NCBI RefSeq assembly: GCF_001640805.2
Contig: NC_066842.1
Location: 23,764,098 to 23,828,097, forward strand
Direction: 5' to 3'
DNA length: 64,000 bases
From: Lates calcarifer
Lineage: Eukaryota; Chordata; Actinopteri; Centropomidae
Of this stretch, positions 3,922-58,857 are shown piece after piece. The notes under the pieces were generated by a model. The model was not told the origin of the DNA and ran no database searches. It saw only the letters and a program-made list of their open reading frames with translations. The number at the start of each line of letters is the position of its first letter. Within the stretch, counting starts at the first letter, position 1. A program made the translations under genes and the position numbers.

Positions 3922-19373
<15,452 letters not shown>

Positions 19374-29559: not shown

Positions 29560-30752
29560 ATTAAAACATTAAAGCGAAAGAGACAAGTTCCATGGTACAA
29601 CTCTAAAACCCGTACACTAAAACAAATATCACATAGGCTTGAAAGAATATGGTGTTCCACCAAACTGGAGGAATCCCACTTAGCCTGGCAAGTCTTAAAA
29701 GATATAAGAAGGCCTTCTGTAATGCAAGAGGCGCCTATTACTCGTCATTAATGGAGGATAATAAGAACAACCCCAGGTTTCTCTTCAGCACTGCAGCCAG
29801 GCTGACAGAGAGTCAGAGCTCTATTGATCCATGTATTCCTATAACCCCCAGCAGTGATGAGTTTATGAACTTTTTAATGATAAAATTTCTACCATTAGAG
29901 ACAAAATTTATCACACCCTGCCTTCAACCAGCACTGATTTATGTCACAACACAGGATCCGTAGAATCAGCTGCAAAATCTAACTTAGACTGTTTTTCTCC
30001 CATCGACCTCTACCAGCTCACTTCAACTATTTCAGCATCTAAACCTTCAACCTGTCTCTTAGACCCCCTGCCACCCCAGATAGCCTTTAATTTGCAGTTC
30101 TGTATTAGATATGTTAAATCTGTCCTTGTTAACATGCTATGTGTTGCAGGTGTATAAAATAGCTATAATCACACCCCTTCTAAAAAAGCCCACTCTTGAT
30201 CCAGACATATGAGCCAACTATAGACCTATATCTAACCTCCCCTTCCTTTCTAAGATCCTGGAGAAAGAAGTTGCAATTCTGTGACTTTCTACAAGATAAT
30301 TCATGGATTTTCAGTCAGGATTTAGGTTGTATCACAGCACAGATACAGCATTTGTAAAAGTTACAAATGACCTCCGAATTGCATCAGACAACGGACTTTT
30401 TTCTGTTATGGTCTTGTTAGATCTCAGTGCTGCTTTTGATACAATTGACCATCACATCCTTTTACAGAGACCGGAGCATTTAATCAGCATTAAAGGAACT
30501 GCACTAAACTGGTTTAAGTCCAGTCTATCTGATAGGCTTCAGTTTGTGCATGTTAATGACAATTCCTCCATGTACAAAAAAGTTAGACATGGAGTTCCAC
30601 TAGGGTCAGTGCTTGGACCAATTCTCTTCACCAAAACTTTCCTCTTTGATAAAGCTTCTAGTTAGGGTTGGCTCAGGCTTGGAACATCCCTTAGTCATGC
30701 TGCAATAGGCCTAGACTGCCGCTGCTGGAGATTTCCCATGACGCATTGAGTT
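29560..30752 (+). mobile_element. L2-type LINE fragment, internally deleted, followed by Tc1 insertion
   Basis: The connector after the endonuclease begins at about 29575 (KRKRQVPWYNSKTRTLKQ) and continues in shifted frames through NKNNPRFLFSTAARLTESQS. From 30303 the reverse transcriptase reads FQSGFRLYHSTDTAFVKVTN, then LLDLSAAFDTIDHHILLQ and HGVPLGSVLGPILFT. At about 30636 it jumps to the element's 3' region ('tcctctttgataaagcttctag...gcaataggcctagactgcc'), so the YADD catalytic box is lost. The phrase GVPLGSVLGP has Leu for the usual Gln. The copy ends near 30752, where Tc1 sequence starts. Confidence 0.82.
30303..30665 (+). pseudogene. LINE reverse transcriptase fragment
   Basis: This is the longest intact frame of the LINE, 120 codons. 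It covers the fingers and the first catalytic-Asp motif (DLSAAFDTIDH) and the GxxxGSVLGP motif of a non-LTR reverse transcriptase. The second catalytic box (YADD) is absent because of the deletion after GPILFT. It is not a host gene. Confidence 0.85.
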
Positions 30753-31563
30753 GTGAAGAAAAACCCCTTCACAACATCTACTCAAGTGAAGAACACTCTC
30801 CAGGAAGTAGGTGTTTCAATATCTAAATCTACCATAAAGAGAAGACTTCATGAGAGTAAATACAAAGGATTCACCACAAGGTGCAAACCATTAATCAGCC
30901 TCAAAAACAGAAAGGCCAGAATTGACTTTGCCAAAAAACACCTGAAGAAGCCAGCCCAGTTCTGGAACAGCATTCTTTGGACAGATGAGACTAAGATCAA
31001 CCTGTACCAGAATGATGGGAAGAAGAAAGTTCGGAGAAGAATTGGAACAGCTCATGATCCAAAGCACACCACATCTTCTGTAAAACATGGTGGAGGCAGT
31101 GTGATGGCATGGGCATGCATGGCTTCCAATGGCACTGGGTCACTTGTGTTTATTGATGTGACAAAAGACAGAAGCAGCCGGATGAATTCTGAAGTGTATA
31201 GGGATAGACTTTCTGCTCAGATTCAGCCAAATGCAGCAAAGTTGATTGGACGGCGCTTCACAGTACAGATGGACAATGATCCAAAACATACTGCAAAAGC
31301 AACCCAGGTTTTTTAAAGCAAAGAAGTGGAATATTCTGCAATGGCCGAGTCAATCACCAGATCTCAACCCAATCGAGCATGCATATCACTTGCTCAAGAC
31401 AAAACTTAAGGCAGAAAGACCCTCAAACAAGCAACAACTGAAGACAGCTGCAGTCAAGGTCTGGCAAAGCATCACAAAGGAGGAAACCCAGCGTTTGGTG
31501 ATGTCCATGGGTTCCAGAGTTCAGGCAGTCATTGCCTGCAAAGGATTCTCAACAAAATATTGA
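30753..31563 (+). pseudogene. Tc1-like DDE transposase, one frameshift, N-terminus missing
   Basis: The first frame (30753-31313) contains SISKSTIKRRLHESKYKG, SILWTDETKINLYQNDG with the first catalytic Asp, GGGSVMAWACMASNGTG, and VQMDNDPKHTAKA with the second Asp. Then an indel near 31308-31316 shifts the frame. The second frame carries FKAKKWNILQWPSQSPDLNP, IEH with the catalytic Glu, and a C-terminus QAVIACKGFSTKY. The spacing fits a DD34E transposase. One indel and the missing N-terminus make it inactive. Relatively few defects suggest a fairly young copy. Confidence 0.92.
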
Positions 31564-42685: not shown

Positions 42686-44105
42686 TACAGTACCTGTCAA
42701 AGGTTTGGACACACCTTCTCATTCAATGGTTTTTCTTTGTTTTTATCACTTTCTACATTTTAGATTAACACTGAAGACATCAGATCTATGAAAGAACACA
42801 AGAAATTATATTGTAAACAAAAAAGTGTATGTTTTATATTTTAGATTCTTCAAAGAAACCACCTTTTGCTTTGATGACAGCTTTGCACACTTCTGGCATT
42901 CTCTCACTCAGATTCATGAGGTAGTCACCTGTAACTGTTTTCAGTTAACAGGTGGGCCTTGTCAAGAGTTAATTTGTGGAATTTCTTGCCTTCTTAATGT
43001 GTTTGAGACCATCAGTTGTGTTGTGTGCAGAGGTAGGGTTGGTACACCATTCTATACAGTGAATACCCCTATTTGACTACTGCCATATTATGGCAAGAAC
43101 CACTCAACAAGAGAAATGACAGTCCATTATTACTTTATGACATGAAGGTCAGTCAATCCAGAAAATCTCAAGAACTTTAAATGTATCCTCGCGTGCGGTC
43201 ACGAAAACCATCAAATGCTATGATGATTACTAGCCTCAGAAACCGCAGATTAACAGCACCTTAGATTAGAGCCCATATAAATGCTTCACAGACTTTAAGT
43301 TGCCAACATATCTGAACATCATCCGTTCAGAGGAGACTGCGTGAATCAGGCCTTCATGGTCAAATTGCTGCAAAGAAACCACTACTGAGGAAGAAGAACA
43401 AGAAGAAAAGAACTGCTTGGGCCAAAGAACACAGGAAATTGACATTAGACCAGTGGAATTCTGTACTTTGGTCTGATGAGTCCAAATTTGAGATTTTTGG
43501 TTCCACCTGCAACGTCTTTGTGAGATGCAGGAAAGGTGAGCAGATGGTTTCTACATGTGTGGTTCCCACCATTTAGCATGGACAAGGAGGTGTGATGGTG
43601 TGGAGGTGCTTTGCTGGTGACACTGTTGGTGATTTATTCAAAATTCAGGTCACACTTAACCAGCATGACTACTGCAGCATTCTGCAGTGACATGCCATCC
43701 CATCTGGTTTGTGCTTAGTGGGACCATCATTTGTTTTACAACAGGACAATGACCCCAAACACACATCAAGGCTATGTAAGGGCTATCTGACCAAGAAGGA
43801 GAGTGATGAGTCATCAGATCACCTGACCTCCACAAATACCTGACCTAAACCCAATTGAGACGGTTTTTGGATGAGTTGGACCGCAAAGTGAAGGCAAGGC
43901 AGCCAGCGAGTGCTCAGCACTTCTCAGAACTCCTTTAAGACTGTTGGAAAACCATTCCAGGTGACTACCTCATGAATCTGATTGAGAGAATGCCAAGAGT
44001 GCAAAGCTGTTATCAAAGTAAAAGGTGGCTACTTTGAAGAATCTAAAATATAAAATATATATATTGTTTAACACTTCTTTGTTCTCTACATAATTTCATA
44101 TTTAA
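42686..44105 (+). mobile_element. Tc1-like transposon, decayed, right end truncated
   Basis: The left terminal repeat starts 'tacagtacctgtcaaaggtt' (42686). The transposase is recognisable only in fragments in several frames: the region before the first Asp motif with 'tttggtctgatgagtcc' (first Asp box, about 43469), 'caacaggacaatgaccccaaacac' (second Asp box, about 43740) and 'ctaaacccaattgag' (Glu box, about 43845). The right side ends with 'ggtggctactttgaagaatc' and loses its outer repeat near 44105. Stops and indels in every frame make it inactive. A solo end of the same family lies at 32199. Confidence 0.88.
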
Positions 44106-45656: not shown

Positions 45657-45734
45657 TCATGGTGATGGTGGTGTCTTCAGCGAATTGGTGGATCCACCTT
45701 GGCTTCCACTCCCCGCTGCTCCCTGTCCGACCCA
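45657..45734 (-). CDS. syt9: candidate terminal syt9 exon
   Basis: On the minus strand a strong polypyrimidine tract and AG (ctctttctctttctttcttcggtccag) precede a frame [25 protein letters not shown] and TGA at 45659-45657. This is in phase 0, as required after the GAG that ends the upstream exon. The stretch is GC-rich in an AT-rich setting. The residues cannot be checked against a trusted homologue here. Read-through of the preceding exon is the alternative end. Confidence 0.45.
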   Translation of the reverse strand, partial: WVGQGAAGSGSQGGSTNSLKTPPSP

Positions 45735-49000: not shown

Positions 49001-51835
49001 CTAGTGCTAATAACTACCTAAAGCACTCCACTACTTGAGCATGACAGTATACAGGTAAATAGAAGGGCAGAATGCTGCAATGCATTGCAATACACTTGGG
49101 CTGAGCCTTATTTGTCAAAATGTTCCTAACTACTCTTGAATATGAAATTATTTAACATTATGAATGTTGTATAAATTGTATAAATGCAGCTCATTATCGT
49201 TTTGAATTCTGAAAACTGACTGGTTGCATTTTTGTTTTTGTTTAGTTTTTCTCATTTTTCATAATGTGAGTTGAAATTTCTTCTTTCTCCTTTCTCCTTA
49301 GCATTAGTAGCACATGTAACTTAAGTCAGTCAACTGGAAGGTAAAAATAATCTAAATAGATGCTTATTATACATTAGTCAGCCTGATTTTAGATGGAATT
49401 CCATTTGGGTAGCAAAGAAAATCACTGACATGTTCATTAGAGATGGAATAATATGCATTATCAGACCTCCTCAGGTAATAAAAAAATAATGATTAGAGAG
49501 GGATTACATCAACAGTCCTCATAATGACCACTGTTAGTGTAGCTGGCAAGTTAGCTTCTGGCTAGGTGCTTCCTATTACATTTTGTAAGAAATGGTAGAT
49601 GCTAATGTGTGTCATTGCTGATGTTAGGCATTATATTTACAGCAATCTGTTTAGAGGCATTTTGTCATCTGACCCCTTCAGCTGAATACCACTAGATTTA
49701 GTTTTGGCAACTCCATTAAAATTTACACAAATTAGTCCAGCATCTGGTCTAATGTATTTTGTTTTTTTTTAATGAGTGTGGGCTGTGAATTCAGAAATAG
49801 AAACAGCTCAGTGAATGCGCCTCTGTGTGTGTGTCTCTCTCTGTAAGCTAGGTGCCTCTGTTGTGGCAATCACAGCAAAACAAGTTGAGTATACATGAGG
49901 GTTATGCAGTATTTTTATTTTTACTGTTTCTCAAAATGGAATTCACAACATGGCAACATAGAATAAGAATACTCATCTAAATTCACTTCATCTGTATTTC
50001 TGAAGTTAGCTCTTTTCTAAATTAAGAATCTTTGTAGTTTAGAAAAATGTTTGTACACTTCATTGTATGGAAGATTGTAATTAACATGTCTACTGCAATT
50101 GGATTTTTGTGTATTTGTTCTTTCAATATTATTACACAAGTATAGTTTTACTTAAATATTCTGATTTCTTAGTCTGATCAGTCTGAATTTCTGATTTATT
50201 TCATTTTACCCATCTATTCGAATGGCTGAACAAATTTGACATGTGGATGGTGACTCATACATTTGAAATCAAAGCCATTACAGATTATTCAAAGCTTTTT
50301 ACCTCTACTACATAAAAAGCTGACCACTTACTAATTATGAAGACATCAGGAGTGAATGGACAGTGGAGAATAATTAATTAATTATATACCTAATTTTTTG
50401 TGACACTGTCAGTCAATGGGTCTACCACTTAAGTCCAGAGTAAAATATCTCTGCAAGAGGATGAATCCTATGACTTTGGCAGCTTTTGGATTGCCATGAA
50501 ATTTGGTTCTAATGGTAATGGTGCCCAGAGGATGAAATTTACAGTACCACCAGCAAGTCAAGATTTTCACATATGCTGTAAAATATATCAACTACTATGT
50601 TGAGATATCTCCTCTAATGCCTTCATGAGGTTAACATTTGTGGTTTTGAATGAAATGTCCTGATAACTATAGGATAGACTGTTATGATATTTAGTTCAGA
50701 CATTCACGTCCCCCTCAGCAGGAATTCTAATAACTTCATCAAGTGCCATAATCTGGTACAATTTTTAATTCATCCAGTTCTTTTGTTCCTGAGCAAATAC
50801 CAGTTAAACCCATGAGAGTCCCATCAGCTTCAGCTGTACCTTGTCTTTTGTGCTAATTTGAAAATACTAAACTAATATGGTAGACATTTGAAATACTATC
50901 TGCTAAATATGAGCATGTTAACTCTATTACTGTGACCACTGTGACCATAGCACGACATCATTTAGCTCAAAACACCACCGTGCCTAAATACAGCCTCACA
51001 AAGATGACTCTTGGACTTGTTTTCTCAATGACTTTAGCCTGAGATGATTGCATGAAGAGGATCATCAGAATGTTTACTTTCTAAGAGTGTAACCTAGAAA
51101 CCCCAGTTTAAAACATCTGTAACAAATATTGTACCAATACAAAAAGTAGCCTGTACCTCTATGAGTGGGTGCCAGTGTGCGATGGGTTTTCCGTGGGTAC
51201 GTCAGCATTTCATTCCAGTGGTCTCGTCCCAGACTCTCAGCCTCATTGCCGACCCTGCACACTCCGATCACTTCATTATGTCCAACCCTGTGGGACAGCA
51301 AAGAATAACACATGAAGAAACCAGAATGTTGAATCAGTTAATGTACTGTAGATGAGCGTAATGAGTGTAATGTATGTATTTAACTTACTGACCGATCATA
51401 GTCCATGACAGCTATGAGCAAGCTGATCTGGTCAATGTTCTCAGGAGGAACATCAAACACAATGGCTTCATTGTACACAGGATTCAGAGTGTTACGCTTT
51501 GTTGACGTCTTCCTTTTCTTCAACCTCCGGCCTTCACACATCAGAGACACTTTCACGTATGGATCTGGAGCCAGGTAACATGGTACTTTCAGCAATGATG
51601 TCAAAATGTATTGATATAGGGAGCCATTCAACAAAACAATAATGTAGCAGTTCAACACCTTATGTGTACATTTGACCTCACAGCAGAAATGCTACATTGT
51701 CTGTCAGCACCCACCTGAGGCTCCAGTGATGTCCATGGCTTTGAGATTTCTGGCTTTAATCATTGTGATGGTAAGCCTGCCAGCCGTGGGGAGATAGCAC
51801 AATGAGAACATCAGCTCTCCCAGGTCCACATTGTC
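45657..51835 (-). CDS. syt9: synaptotagmin-9-like, C2B domain exons (3' part of gene)
   Basis: Synaptotagmins are membrane-anchored vesicle proteins with two C2 domains, C2A and C2B, that sense calcium for exocytosis. Exons on the minus strand at 51715-51835, 51393-51564 and 51157-51287, plus a candidate last exon at 45657-45734, encode the C2B domain. The residues [36 protein letters not shown] and [12 protein letters not shown] fit synaptotagmin-9 better than Syt1/2 or Syt3/6/10 as I remember them. The C2B lysine-rich strand ([12 protein letters not shown]) and the calcium-loop Asp residues (AMDITG, SDPYV, VMDYDR) are present. The exon at 51157-51287 carries one extra base that breaks the C-terminus (see finding). 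C2A, linker, TM and N-terminal exons were not found up to 64000. SPON1 and SYT9 both map to human 11p15, which fits the pairing. Confidence 0.85.
46007..46056. repeat. (AT)25 microsatellite
   Basis: Fifty bases of perfect AT alternation, lying in the proposed last syt9 intron. It gives the Tyr-Ile repeat in several overlapping frames, none of which is a gene. Confidence 0.98.
46057..47189. other. proposed syt9 intron, nothing recognised
   Basis: AT-rich DNA with a poly(A) tract near 46593-46608 and a G-rich patch near 46757. No coding sequence was identified. Confidence 0.5.
47190..47480 (-). mobile_element. Tc1/mariner-type transposase remnant
   Basis: The minus-strand frame 47158-47478 reads [18 protein letters not shown], then [20 protein letters not shown] and [14 protein letters not shown]. 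This is the segment around the second catalytic Asp (QDNAP.H) of a fish Tc1/mariner-like transposase, up to the WPPNSPD region, here decayed to FPPD. The first Asp and the ends are missing. It lies in the proposed last syt9 intron, in the same orientation as that gene. Confidence 0.75.
47481..48654. other. proposed syt9 intron, nothing recognised
   Basis: No coding or RNA feature. There is a T-rich tract near 48378-48398 and AT-rich low complexity near 48560-48650. Confidence 0.5.
48655..48735 (+). mobile_element. LINE 3'-end fragment
   Basis: The phrase 'aacggagcactgcaacacaacaatttcccacaagggataaataagg' followed by (ATTCTG)n is the usual 3' end of fish LINE copies. A related phrase ('gtgggataaataaagt') occurs in the foldback at 53476-53594. 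Only the end is present. Confidence 0.55.
48736..51156. other. proposed syt9 intron with an old repeat
   Basis: Mostly unrecognised AT-rich DNA. About 50395-50740 is a copy of the old interspersed repeat listed separately. Confidence 0.5.
50395..50740. repeat. old fish interspersed repeat
   Basis: Carries 'gaggatgaatcctatgactttgg', 'tgccatgaaatttggttct', 'catgaggttaacatttgtggttttgaatgaaatgtc' and 'cattcacgtccccctcagcagg'. These match the word order of the fragments at 16080-16660 and 26880-27190. It is the longest uninterrupted copy in the window and reads as a tandem-like double unit. Confidence 0.65.
51157..51287 (-). CDS. syt9: syt9 exon: end of C2B, with a +1 frameshift
   Basis: This minus-strand exon lies between acceptor 'gtcccacag' and donor gtacag. 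It reads (R)[20 protein letters not shown] then [13 protein letters not shown], after which the frame becomes [10 protein letters not shown]. Omitting one A of the AAAA run at 51187-51190 (TTTT on the plus strand) instead yields [10 protein letters not shown], the conserved synaptotagmin end with the WHxL motif. The length of 131 nt is one more than the 130 nt that would keep phase to the donor. The exon looks real; the extra base is either an assembly/sequencing slip or a true lesion. Confidence 0.9.
51393..51564 (-). CDS. syt9: syt9 exon: central C2B domain
   Basis: This 172-nt minus-strand exon follows 'cctggctccag'. It reads (D)[20 protein letters not shown], then [20 protein letters not shown] and [16 protein letters not shown](R). 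It has the C2B polybasic strand used for PIP2 and adaptor binding and the [10 protein letters not shown] signature. The donor used must be CG|gtcagt at 51392, because only it keeps phase with the next exon. An equally or more consensus gtaagt starts four bases downstream and would shift the frame. Confidence 0.93.
51715..51835 (-). CDS. syt9: syt9 exon: start of C2B domain
   Basis: This 121-nt minus-strand exon lies between 'gatttgcag' and gtgggt. It reads [20 protein letters not shown], then [20 protein letters not shown]. This is the first strands of C2B including calcium-binding loop 1 ([10 protein letters not shown]). The start is phase 0 and the end phase 1. It joins in frame to the exon at 51393-51564. 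Confidence 0.94.
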
Positions 51836-56276: not shown

Positions 56277-57731
56277 ACATATGTTTAGTTTGTTAAAGAA
56301 AAAGTCTGAGAGTTAGAGGTCTTAGTATGCGTGATAATGAACAAATTTGACCACATATGTGTACATTGGTGAACATACCTTTGAACTTTGAAAGGAGGCT
56401 GTTACCTGTTTCCCCCATCTTCCAGTCTTTATGATAAGCTAATAAAAACTTCCATGTAGTAGTTTACACACAGGAAATGAAGGCACAGGTGATGTGTCAA
56501 CAGTAAACAGTCATGAAAGATAGCTAAAACAGAAGAAAAAGGTTCTCTGTATAGGCTATATCATAATGTTTGCCCCTGTAATACATTTAGGATCCTCTAC
56601 TGACTCGACTGACCATAAGCATCTGGAGAATCGCATTTCTCACTTAGTCAATAAGGGCAAATGGGAGGACAAGTGCTTGTTATATGCTTCCATTTGTCAT
56701 TGTTGGGAAATGGGAAACTCCTTTACTGAATTAAGCACACACACCCACACACACACTGCATATGCACATGCTGACCCCATTTATCAAGGTCCTAATTACA
56801 AGCCAACCAGACTGCAGTCGATAGTATTGACTGGCCCTGCAGGAGCTGCAGGTTACAGTGTCTCTGAACTCCTCATTGTCTTTGTCTCTCTTGAAAATCT
56901 TCAGTTGAAGAAAGAAGGCAGGAATGCACATGTAACAGCATGATATACGTCCAACAGCAAACTGAATCTCTTGACACATACTCAATAGTCAAGCTGGGAA
57001 GTCTCTCAACACTCTCAAACCATCATACTAATCTGCACCAAGCTAGATATTCAGTTACTTGTTGAGTTAATCTGTTCTTTAGGAGCTGTAAAGCAAAAAA
57101 TATTTCAAAAAAAATCATGTTAAGAGTTTGTATAAAGCCCTTTTATCACCAGAGGTGGAAAATCAAATTGCATCTTTGTGAGGTTCTACACACATAGTAA
57201 TGTAGTGACTACTCTTAGGGCCAGTTGTTAAACTGCTATAGCTGAAGAGTTAACCACTAACACAAAAGCAAGTGAAGCTAGCACTAGTCATTAGCAATTT
57301 GACCTTCCTTCTACTTTCTCTGTGTAATTTATTCTCACTTGGCACCATGTTCTGAGTTATTGAAGGTGGGAAAAAAGCCCTCTGGGCTAACAAGCTTGTT
57401 ATCTGCTGTTAGTGAACTAGCACTAACAAGACAATAAATTTATTAATTTACACAGCTCCTGGGTCATAACAGTCTGGAAACTATCCCACTTTTCCTAAGC
57501 AGTTTATTCTGACATAGCTAATATGTTACAATAACTCTCCATTCCCTCAAAGGGACTACTGAGGCAGTTTGGTATTGGTCAATGGGAGGCAAACTAGGCC
57601 AAAGTTCAAAGTTGAATGTGACACTAATAATTTGCATGACTTTACTTTGTTTCCATGAGTGAATCCATTGATGGTGGCAATTGCACTGAAATCAATCAGA
57701 TTAGTCATTTGAGATGCTAGTGCGATCAGGT
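56277..57731 (-). other. syt9 upstream intron, nothing recognised
   Basis: Two antiparallel frames at 56566-56943 and 56731-56985 run through a short CA repeat and show no family motif. Confidence 0.5.
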
Positions 57732-57739
57732 ATTAATTC

Positions 57740-58857
57740 TAGGGATGCACCCATACCGATACCAGTATTGGGTATCAGGTCCGATACCCTGTTGCTGTAC
57801 TCATACTCGTAAAACTGTTCCGATACCACAGCCCAATACCACTTTACGGCAGCGTGACGTTCACTCGGGCAGTCAGGTGCAAAGTGAGAGCACGGAGGAG
57901 CAATGTTGGCGGTGTGGAGGTATTTCAAAGTGGATGATGGTGACTAAAGTAAAGCAGACTGCAAATTATGCTCTGATAAAACATCTAAAAAACCAACACG
58001 ACACTGAGTTCAAAGCGTTTGCTAATAATGGCAAACAGCAACAACCAACTTTGCAGCAAACTCTGGAGAAGAGGGAGAAGATGTTAAGAGACAACCCACG
58101 TGCAGTGAAAATAACAGAGGCTCTGACCCAGTACATTGCTCTTGATGACCAGCCATTGTCGGTTGTTGATAATATAGGATTTAGACGTCTTCTCAGCATA
58201 CTGGAGCCGAGGTATGAGATCCCTAGCCGACACCACATCACTGACACAGTGTTGCCAAAGCTACACGAGTTTGTGAAGAGGCACATCCGCAGCCTGTTGC
58301 AAGACATCTCAGCCCTCAGCTTCACCACTGATATTTGGATGAGCAGCGTTAGCCCGGTGTCCCTCATTAGTTTAACTGCACAGCAGAATGACGAGGATTT
58401 TACTCCAGTGAAGAGTCGTACTGCATGCAAAACAGTTTAGGGATTCGCACACCAGCCAAGCCATTGAAGGTGTGTTTGATGACATGCTTCAGACATGTGG
58501 GGTCCCTAAAAGCTCTGTTCATGTTATGCTACGTGATAATGCAAAAAACATGATCAAAGCCATGAGTGACGCTGGACTCCCGAGCCTGCCCTGTGTCACA
58601 CACACCCTCCAGCTAGCTGGCTGTTAATGAGGGGCTTTTAGCACAGAGGAGCGTGGCTGATGCTGTGGCAGTCAGATGGAAAATAGTTGGACATTTTAAA
58701 CATTCCACCTTAGCCTACTCCTGCCTTGAAGACATTCTGTTTGTTAAAAATCTATCTATGAAGTGTAATGGCATTAATAAGTACTCGTATCGGTACTTGG
58801 TATCGGCAAGTATCGGTATCGTATCGGTTTGAAAAAAGTGGTATCAGAGCATCCCTA
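57740..58857 (+). mobile_element. internally deleted hAT transposon (ZBED-like)
   Basis: The 1118-bp element starts 'tagggatgcacccataccgat' and ends 'gtggtatcagagcatcccta', with GATACC/GGTATC-rich inverted ends. Both sides carry the exact 8-bp target duplication attaattc (57732-57739 and 58858-58865), as expected for hAT. The transposase inside is only partial, so the copy is non-autonomous. Confidence 0.95.
57898..58750 (+). pseudogene. hAT (ZBED-like) transposase, N-terminal part, frameshifted
   Basis: A BED-type zinc-finger remnant (CWRCGG...HLKNQHDTEF) is followed by LEPRYEIPSRHHITDTVLPK, then FTTDIWMSSVSPVSLISLTA, the region that includes a catalytic Asp of the RNase H-like fold. Near 58400 the frame shifts. 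The next part reads HAKQFRDSHTSQAIEGVFDD, then VMLRDNAKNMIKAMSDAGLP and THTLQLA, with a stop in the middle (ctgttaatga, about 58621). It is cut off after STLAYSCLEDI, so the rest of the catalytic domain and the C-terminal dimerisation region are missing. It is not functional. Confidence 0.9.

Follow-up and report, generated by a model that had tools for sequence, protein, structure and literature searches.

An extra base, very probably a consensus error in the v3 assembly, takes the WHxL C-terminus out of frame in syt9b of Lates calcarifer

Single-base breaks in otherwise intact genes have been described from assemblies that were built, without phasing, from PacBio reads of heterozygous organisms. 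According to passages of PMC5632298, an unphased PacBio assembly acquired indels through the merging of haplotypes, at positions where these carry different bases, and excerpts of PMC8445201 describe a collapsed assembly in which indels were caused by nearby allelic variants. The syt9b gene of Lates calcarifer (barramundi) likewise shows one-base breaks in an otherwise intact gene, and here too the organism was heterozygous and the PacBio assembly unphased; in the parts of those two papers that we draw on, the sequences were compared with phased assemblies or corrected reads, whereas for syt9b we infer the error.

The window, by which we mean the whole 64,000-nucleotide stretch of DNA analyzed, belongs to the L. 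calcarifer v3 assembly. The assembly analyzed here comprises 673.2 Mb in 2979 contigs, the last of which (C2979, 16,535 bases) is as long as the mitochondrial genomes of fishes, and the part of PMC4833346 that gives assembly sizes (Table 1) lists v2 as 668.5 Mb in 3,807 pieces and v3 as 586.9 Mb in 24. The release analyzed is thus near the published v3, though perhaps not exactly identical with it, and its unplaced part may differ. Excerpts of PMC4833346 name as the source a single fish of a backcross line, partly inbred yet heterozygous (0.4-0.5%), which was sequenced to ~90x with PacBio, assembled by HGAP with a diploid-unaware assembler and polished with Quiver, the Illumina reads being used to count k-mers, to build a separate assembly and to run checks by mapping. 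No short-read base correction of the assembly is described in 12 of the 27 mentions of Illumina, error correction or consensus in that paper, and the term "Pilon" is absent from its main text. Insertions can enter a consensus when PacBio reads of a heterozygous individual are assembled and polished without phasing, as they were here. Excerpts of the same paper also report 99.4% base agreement between BAC ends and the assembly, and passages of PMC10413685, which mention no base errors, report mis-assemblies of v3 at the scaffold scale. A population study from 2024 still used the 2016 project's reference for read alignment (section of PMC11817853), and public L. calcarifer PacBio and Illumina reads have been re-assembled as a benchmark (section of PMC10555665).

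The gene that carries the extra base is syt9b (synaptotagmin-9b) of L. calcarifer; its best full-length match is annotated syt9/syt9b, and all exons were found with their order kept. The coding sequence lies on the minus strand and extends past the window, with exons 1-4 beyond its right end (84065-83918, 69773-69598, 66434-66217 and 65962-65421, in window coordinates extended past 64000) and exons 5-8 inside. Exon 5 (51715-51835) is in frame, as is exon 6 (51393-51564), which carries C2 sequence up to ...VMDYDR; the computed boundary of each was shifted by one base, so that the GT donor of exon 5 and the AG acceptor of exon 6 are kept. Exon 7 (51157-51287) encodes the end of C2B with the WHxL stretch and is followed by the donor GTACAG. 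Terminal exon 8 (45657-45734) is open in phase 0, in the original frame without the shift; its 25 residues, followed by a stop, share 92% identity with the tail, also of 25 residues, of the synaptotagmin-9 of Stegastes partitus (damselfish). As assembled, the coding sequence measures 1586 nt, and its reading frame through C2A and C2B is broken twice; removing one base at either break gives 1584 nt in all, or 527 codons and a stop, in a continuous frame, which is the length of the S. partitus and Mugil cephalus (mullet) proteins. The two breaks aside, the syt9b exons hold no in-frame stop and have lost no GT/AG splice site. In exon content, N-terminus, transmembrane stretch, C2A, C2B and the terminal SLKTPPSP exon the gene agrees with percomorph syt9b, and the read-through protein is 97% identical to M. 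cephalus synaptotagmin-9b (query without exon 8); compared with these percomorph genes, the assembled L. calcarifer gene carries one inserted base in C2A and another ahead of WHxL. The last intron contains a dispersed repeat at 50805-51013; of the 43 genome matches listed for window positions 50800-51700, 36 are to this stretch, at 67-95% identity.

The second of these insertions in coding order falls within or adjacent to an AAAA run at 51187-51190 (TTTT on the plus strand; C10:23815284-23815287), in the context CGG-AAAA-CCC. The minus strand reads CCACGGAAAACCCATCGC here, with the A run at 51190-51187, and ahead of the donor GTACAG of exon 7 it reads TACCCACGGAAAACCCATCGCACACTGGCACCCACTCATAGAG. 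The WHxL C-terminus is therefore out of frame in syt9b as assembled and present in the neighboring frame. The initial annotation, which had reported that an extra base shifts this exon out of the WHxL frame, is borne out by this reading of the minus strand, and its exon length also holds, since one base fewer gives an exon of 130 nt that ends in phase 0 at GAG/gtacag, as against 131 nt as assembled. It had further placed the extra base in the A run, where dropping one A does restore YPRKPIA; the loss of a G of CGG restores it too, so the base is not assignable to the A run alone.

The WHxL stretch has a putative role in docking, and chains of Syt3 and Syt1 from solved structures align through it as HWHQL and QWHTL. 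The stretch lies in beta-strand 8 of C2B and has been reported, in passages of PMC3373503, to mediate internalization; the portion of the PMC literature covered for L. calcarifer together with synaptotagmin held nothing that we judged relevant. Within the same genome, all four close paralogues (on C2, C18, C6 and C11) are in frame through WHxL, including PIEHWHQLVE, and encode Arg-Lys-Pro in frame at the site of the AAAA run; five more distant synaptotagmin-like loci likewise have their WH in frame (WHPL, WHTL, WHPL, WHNL and WHAM). The motif had been called invariant, which is too strong for a stretch that is strongly conserved and yet not absolute: 112 of the 120 best homologues listed (of 4467 found) have it, and the eight without it are L. 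calcarifer itself, three with WHPV or WHPI, and four with cut or aberrant ends. Two synaptotagmin gene models on the homologue list (P0009 and P0095) carry extra PF05699 and PF00078 domains and are probably annotation fusions with transposable-element open reading frames.

Another +1 insertion lies in the C2A exon of syt9b, ~1.8 kb past the right end of the window, at C10:23829859-23829864 (positions 1762-1767 of the extracted region L009), the gene again running on the minus strand. Here ...FILKFDFDL and EQLIVKIHKAQ... lie in different frames, and there is no space for an intron between them; the sequence reads GACCTTGGAACAA, and the Leu-Glu-Gln frame requires one base fewer. This break and terminal exon 8 (45657-45734) are additions to the account given in the initial annotation. 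The translation of syt9b as assembled stops at about residue 280, shortly past the C2A break, and the loss of WHxL is therefore not the main damage, if the letters are real; the C2A break would in that case cost the protein most of C2A and the whole of C2B.

The same upstream stop bears on the idea that the shifted C-terminus is functional, or that recoding or editing gives barramundi syt9b a new tail. The shifted frame meets no stop within exon 7 and would run to one after splicing to exon 8, as a new tail would have it, but the C2A break ends the protein first, the conserved frame of exon 8 is the unshifted one, and the shifted tail THRTLAP occurs in just one of the 120 best homologues (of 4467 found), that one being the L. 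calcarifer protein; we regard this idea as barely conceivable. The public record in question, UniRef A0A4W6EBH9, is identical to the assembled gene for residues 1-224 and again for 249 more, including the shifted tail, while its model lacks 29 residues around the C2A break and has an intron-derived end. It derives from such an assembled sequence and carries over its errors, and so is not independent support for them; its end and its internal gap are probably absent from the animal.

A gene on its way to being lost could likewise carry two frame breaks, which counts against an artefact, and a fixed young pseudogene in L. calcarifer would be consistent with the presence of a close paralogue on C2 (syt9a-like, 95% identical over the C2B exon) that could cover the role of syt9b. 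The signs of relaxed constraint that a pseudogene would be expected to show, namely stops, lost splice sites and raised divergence, were not seen: the read-through protein is 98% identical to the synaptotagmin-9 of S. partitus (502-residue query, exon 8 excluded), and the terminal exon keeps its 92% identity in the old frame. This high identity and the intact frame of exon 8 indicate that constraint on syt9b lasted until very recently, and fixed loss of the gene appears highly improbable.

Breaks of the same kind occur elsewhere in the assembly. As a control we used a search for the Cadherin_2 family, in which the 150 matches listed (150 of 260 candidates were scored) comprise 90 chromosomal protocadherin exons and 60 on unplaced contigs, and we counted as short any open frame of less than 700 residues. 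Among those listed, 8 of the 90 chromosomal exons, in 217 kb of open frame, and 17 of the 60 on unplaced contigs, some of them at contig ends, have a short frame. All eight chromosomal cases are on C8; one (L084) has an in-frame stop, and seven continue in another frame with a net shift of +1 each (for L083 as judged by its open frames and by visual reading). By eye, one of the seven (L088) looks like a two-base loss, one (L087) is a more complex break, and one (L086) shows additional disorder downstream and does not fit a merge of alleles differing by a transition; the remaining net +1 breaks look like one-base gains. The chromosome copy of L087 has 2+1+1 extra bases within ~70 bases, and its unplaced copy L092, which differs from it by 9 mismatches in 355 columns, is open over the whole 117 codons. 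Unplaced copies of other exons vary: against the chromosome, L078 has 15 indels (8 gains and 7 losses) with only 5 mismatches, L080 has mostly losses, and L079 has 3 indels with 42 mismatches. Since indels of both signs occur on unplaced contigs, gains only are not a general mark of assembly errors. We read the protocadherin indels as signs of consensus indel errors, and the tandem cluster may be richer in errors, or in real pseudogenes, than single-copy genes are. The pair L090 and L091, which we had considered as alleles, are ~92% alike (53 mismatches in 644 columns) and thus probably paralogues, and were dropped. The protocadherin cluster lies at C8:11.64-12.18 Mb, and near-duplicates of it lie on unplaced contigs C1299-C1305, C1737-C1739 and C2978.

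Seven breaks in 217 kb correspond to about one per 31 kb, or ~0.05 per coding sequence of 1.58 kb, if they are spread evenly and if one gene cluster, which is maybe unrepresentative, stands for the whole. By our own arithmetic from the same control, two breaks would be met in a given gene with a chance of ~0.1%, yet in ~28 of 22,184 annotated genes, the number reported in excerpts of PMC4833346.

Collectively, the data point to a consensus error in the v3 assembly of L. calcarifer as the source of the extra base, in a syt9b gene that is otherwise normal (probability roughly 0.92), because the fish was heterozygous and its PacBio assembly unphased, a second +1 insertion lies in the same coding sequence, and similar breaks occur elsewhere. 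We infer that the living fish has an ordinary syt9b frame. The initial annotation had left the choice between a slip in the assembly and a recent lesion or polymorphism; the three observations just given favor the slip, and nothing specific points to a lesion. A true frameshift allele that segregates in the sequenced fish or its stock, with the consensus having chosen that haplotype, would be in keeping with a heterozygous fish of a backcross line, and both flanks of the break are well conserved, as they would be around a young lesion. Two independent +1 insertions would be needed in one 1.58-kb coding sequence and on the same consensus, however, and the same type of break is found in other exons, including the protocadherin exon that is open on another contig, which makes such an allele improbable. 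Taken as a whole, it is unlikely that barramundi carries frameshift alleles of syt9b, fixed or segregating, that remove C2B function, one syt9 ohnologue being in the course of loss.

If the extra base is a consensus error, it may have arisen as follows. An assembler that ignores diploidy would build its consensus from PacBio reads of a heterozygous fish, alleles that differ by a synonymous base would merge, and the consensus would retain both letters. CGG and CGA (both Arg) ahead of AAA CCC would thus give CGGAAAACCC, and CTG and TTG (both Leu, in C2A) ahead of GAA would give CTTGGAA. The same artefact could instead come from a simple error that inserts one base at a short run. The allele merge is perhaps the route of origin; the pattern of a synonymous-transition merge arises by chance in 748 of the 2675 run-lengthening insertions in the syt9b coding sequence (28%), or in ~8% for two, and the detail of the merge is therefore a lead, not a result. 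The homopolymer slip proposed in the initial annotation is a possible route as well, although four A make a short run for such a slip, which counts against an artefact of that kind. It could be the sole mechanism, but the C2A break lies in CCTTGG, outside any long run, so that an allele merge or a plain insertion has an equal or better likelihood. Among the matches for window positions 50800-51700 and for positions 1300-2100 of region L009, none was a further copy of the syt9b region that would show the other allele, which also counts against the artefact; the other matches to these query regions are paralogues or the dispersed intron repeat.

The matter is chiefly a caution: other barramundi gene models may have the same kind of break, and counts of lost genes or of new C-termini drawn from this assembly need checking against reads.

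Several other features of the window lie apart from syt9b. Thrombospondin type-1 repeat exons, which we take to resemble the 3' part of spon1, occupy 6489-19370 on the plus strand, and a G-rich (AGG)n stretch follows one of them at 19008-19070. A match to a tRNA model at 10110-10182 on the plus strand scores 31.4 bits against a gathering threshold of 29 and perhaps marks a tRNA-derived SINE. In addition, pieces of open reading frames at 30300-31560, 43316-43573 and 57721-58437, also on the plus strand, look by eye like debris of transposable elements and presumably resemble reverse transcriptase, Tc1-like and hAT/BED-like transposase.
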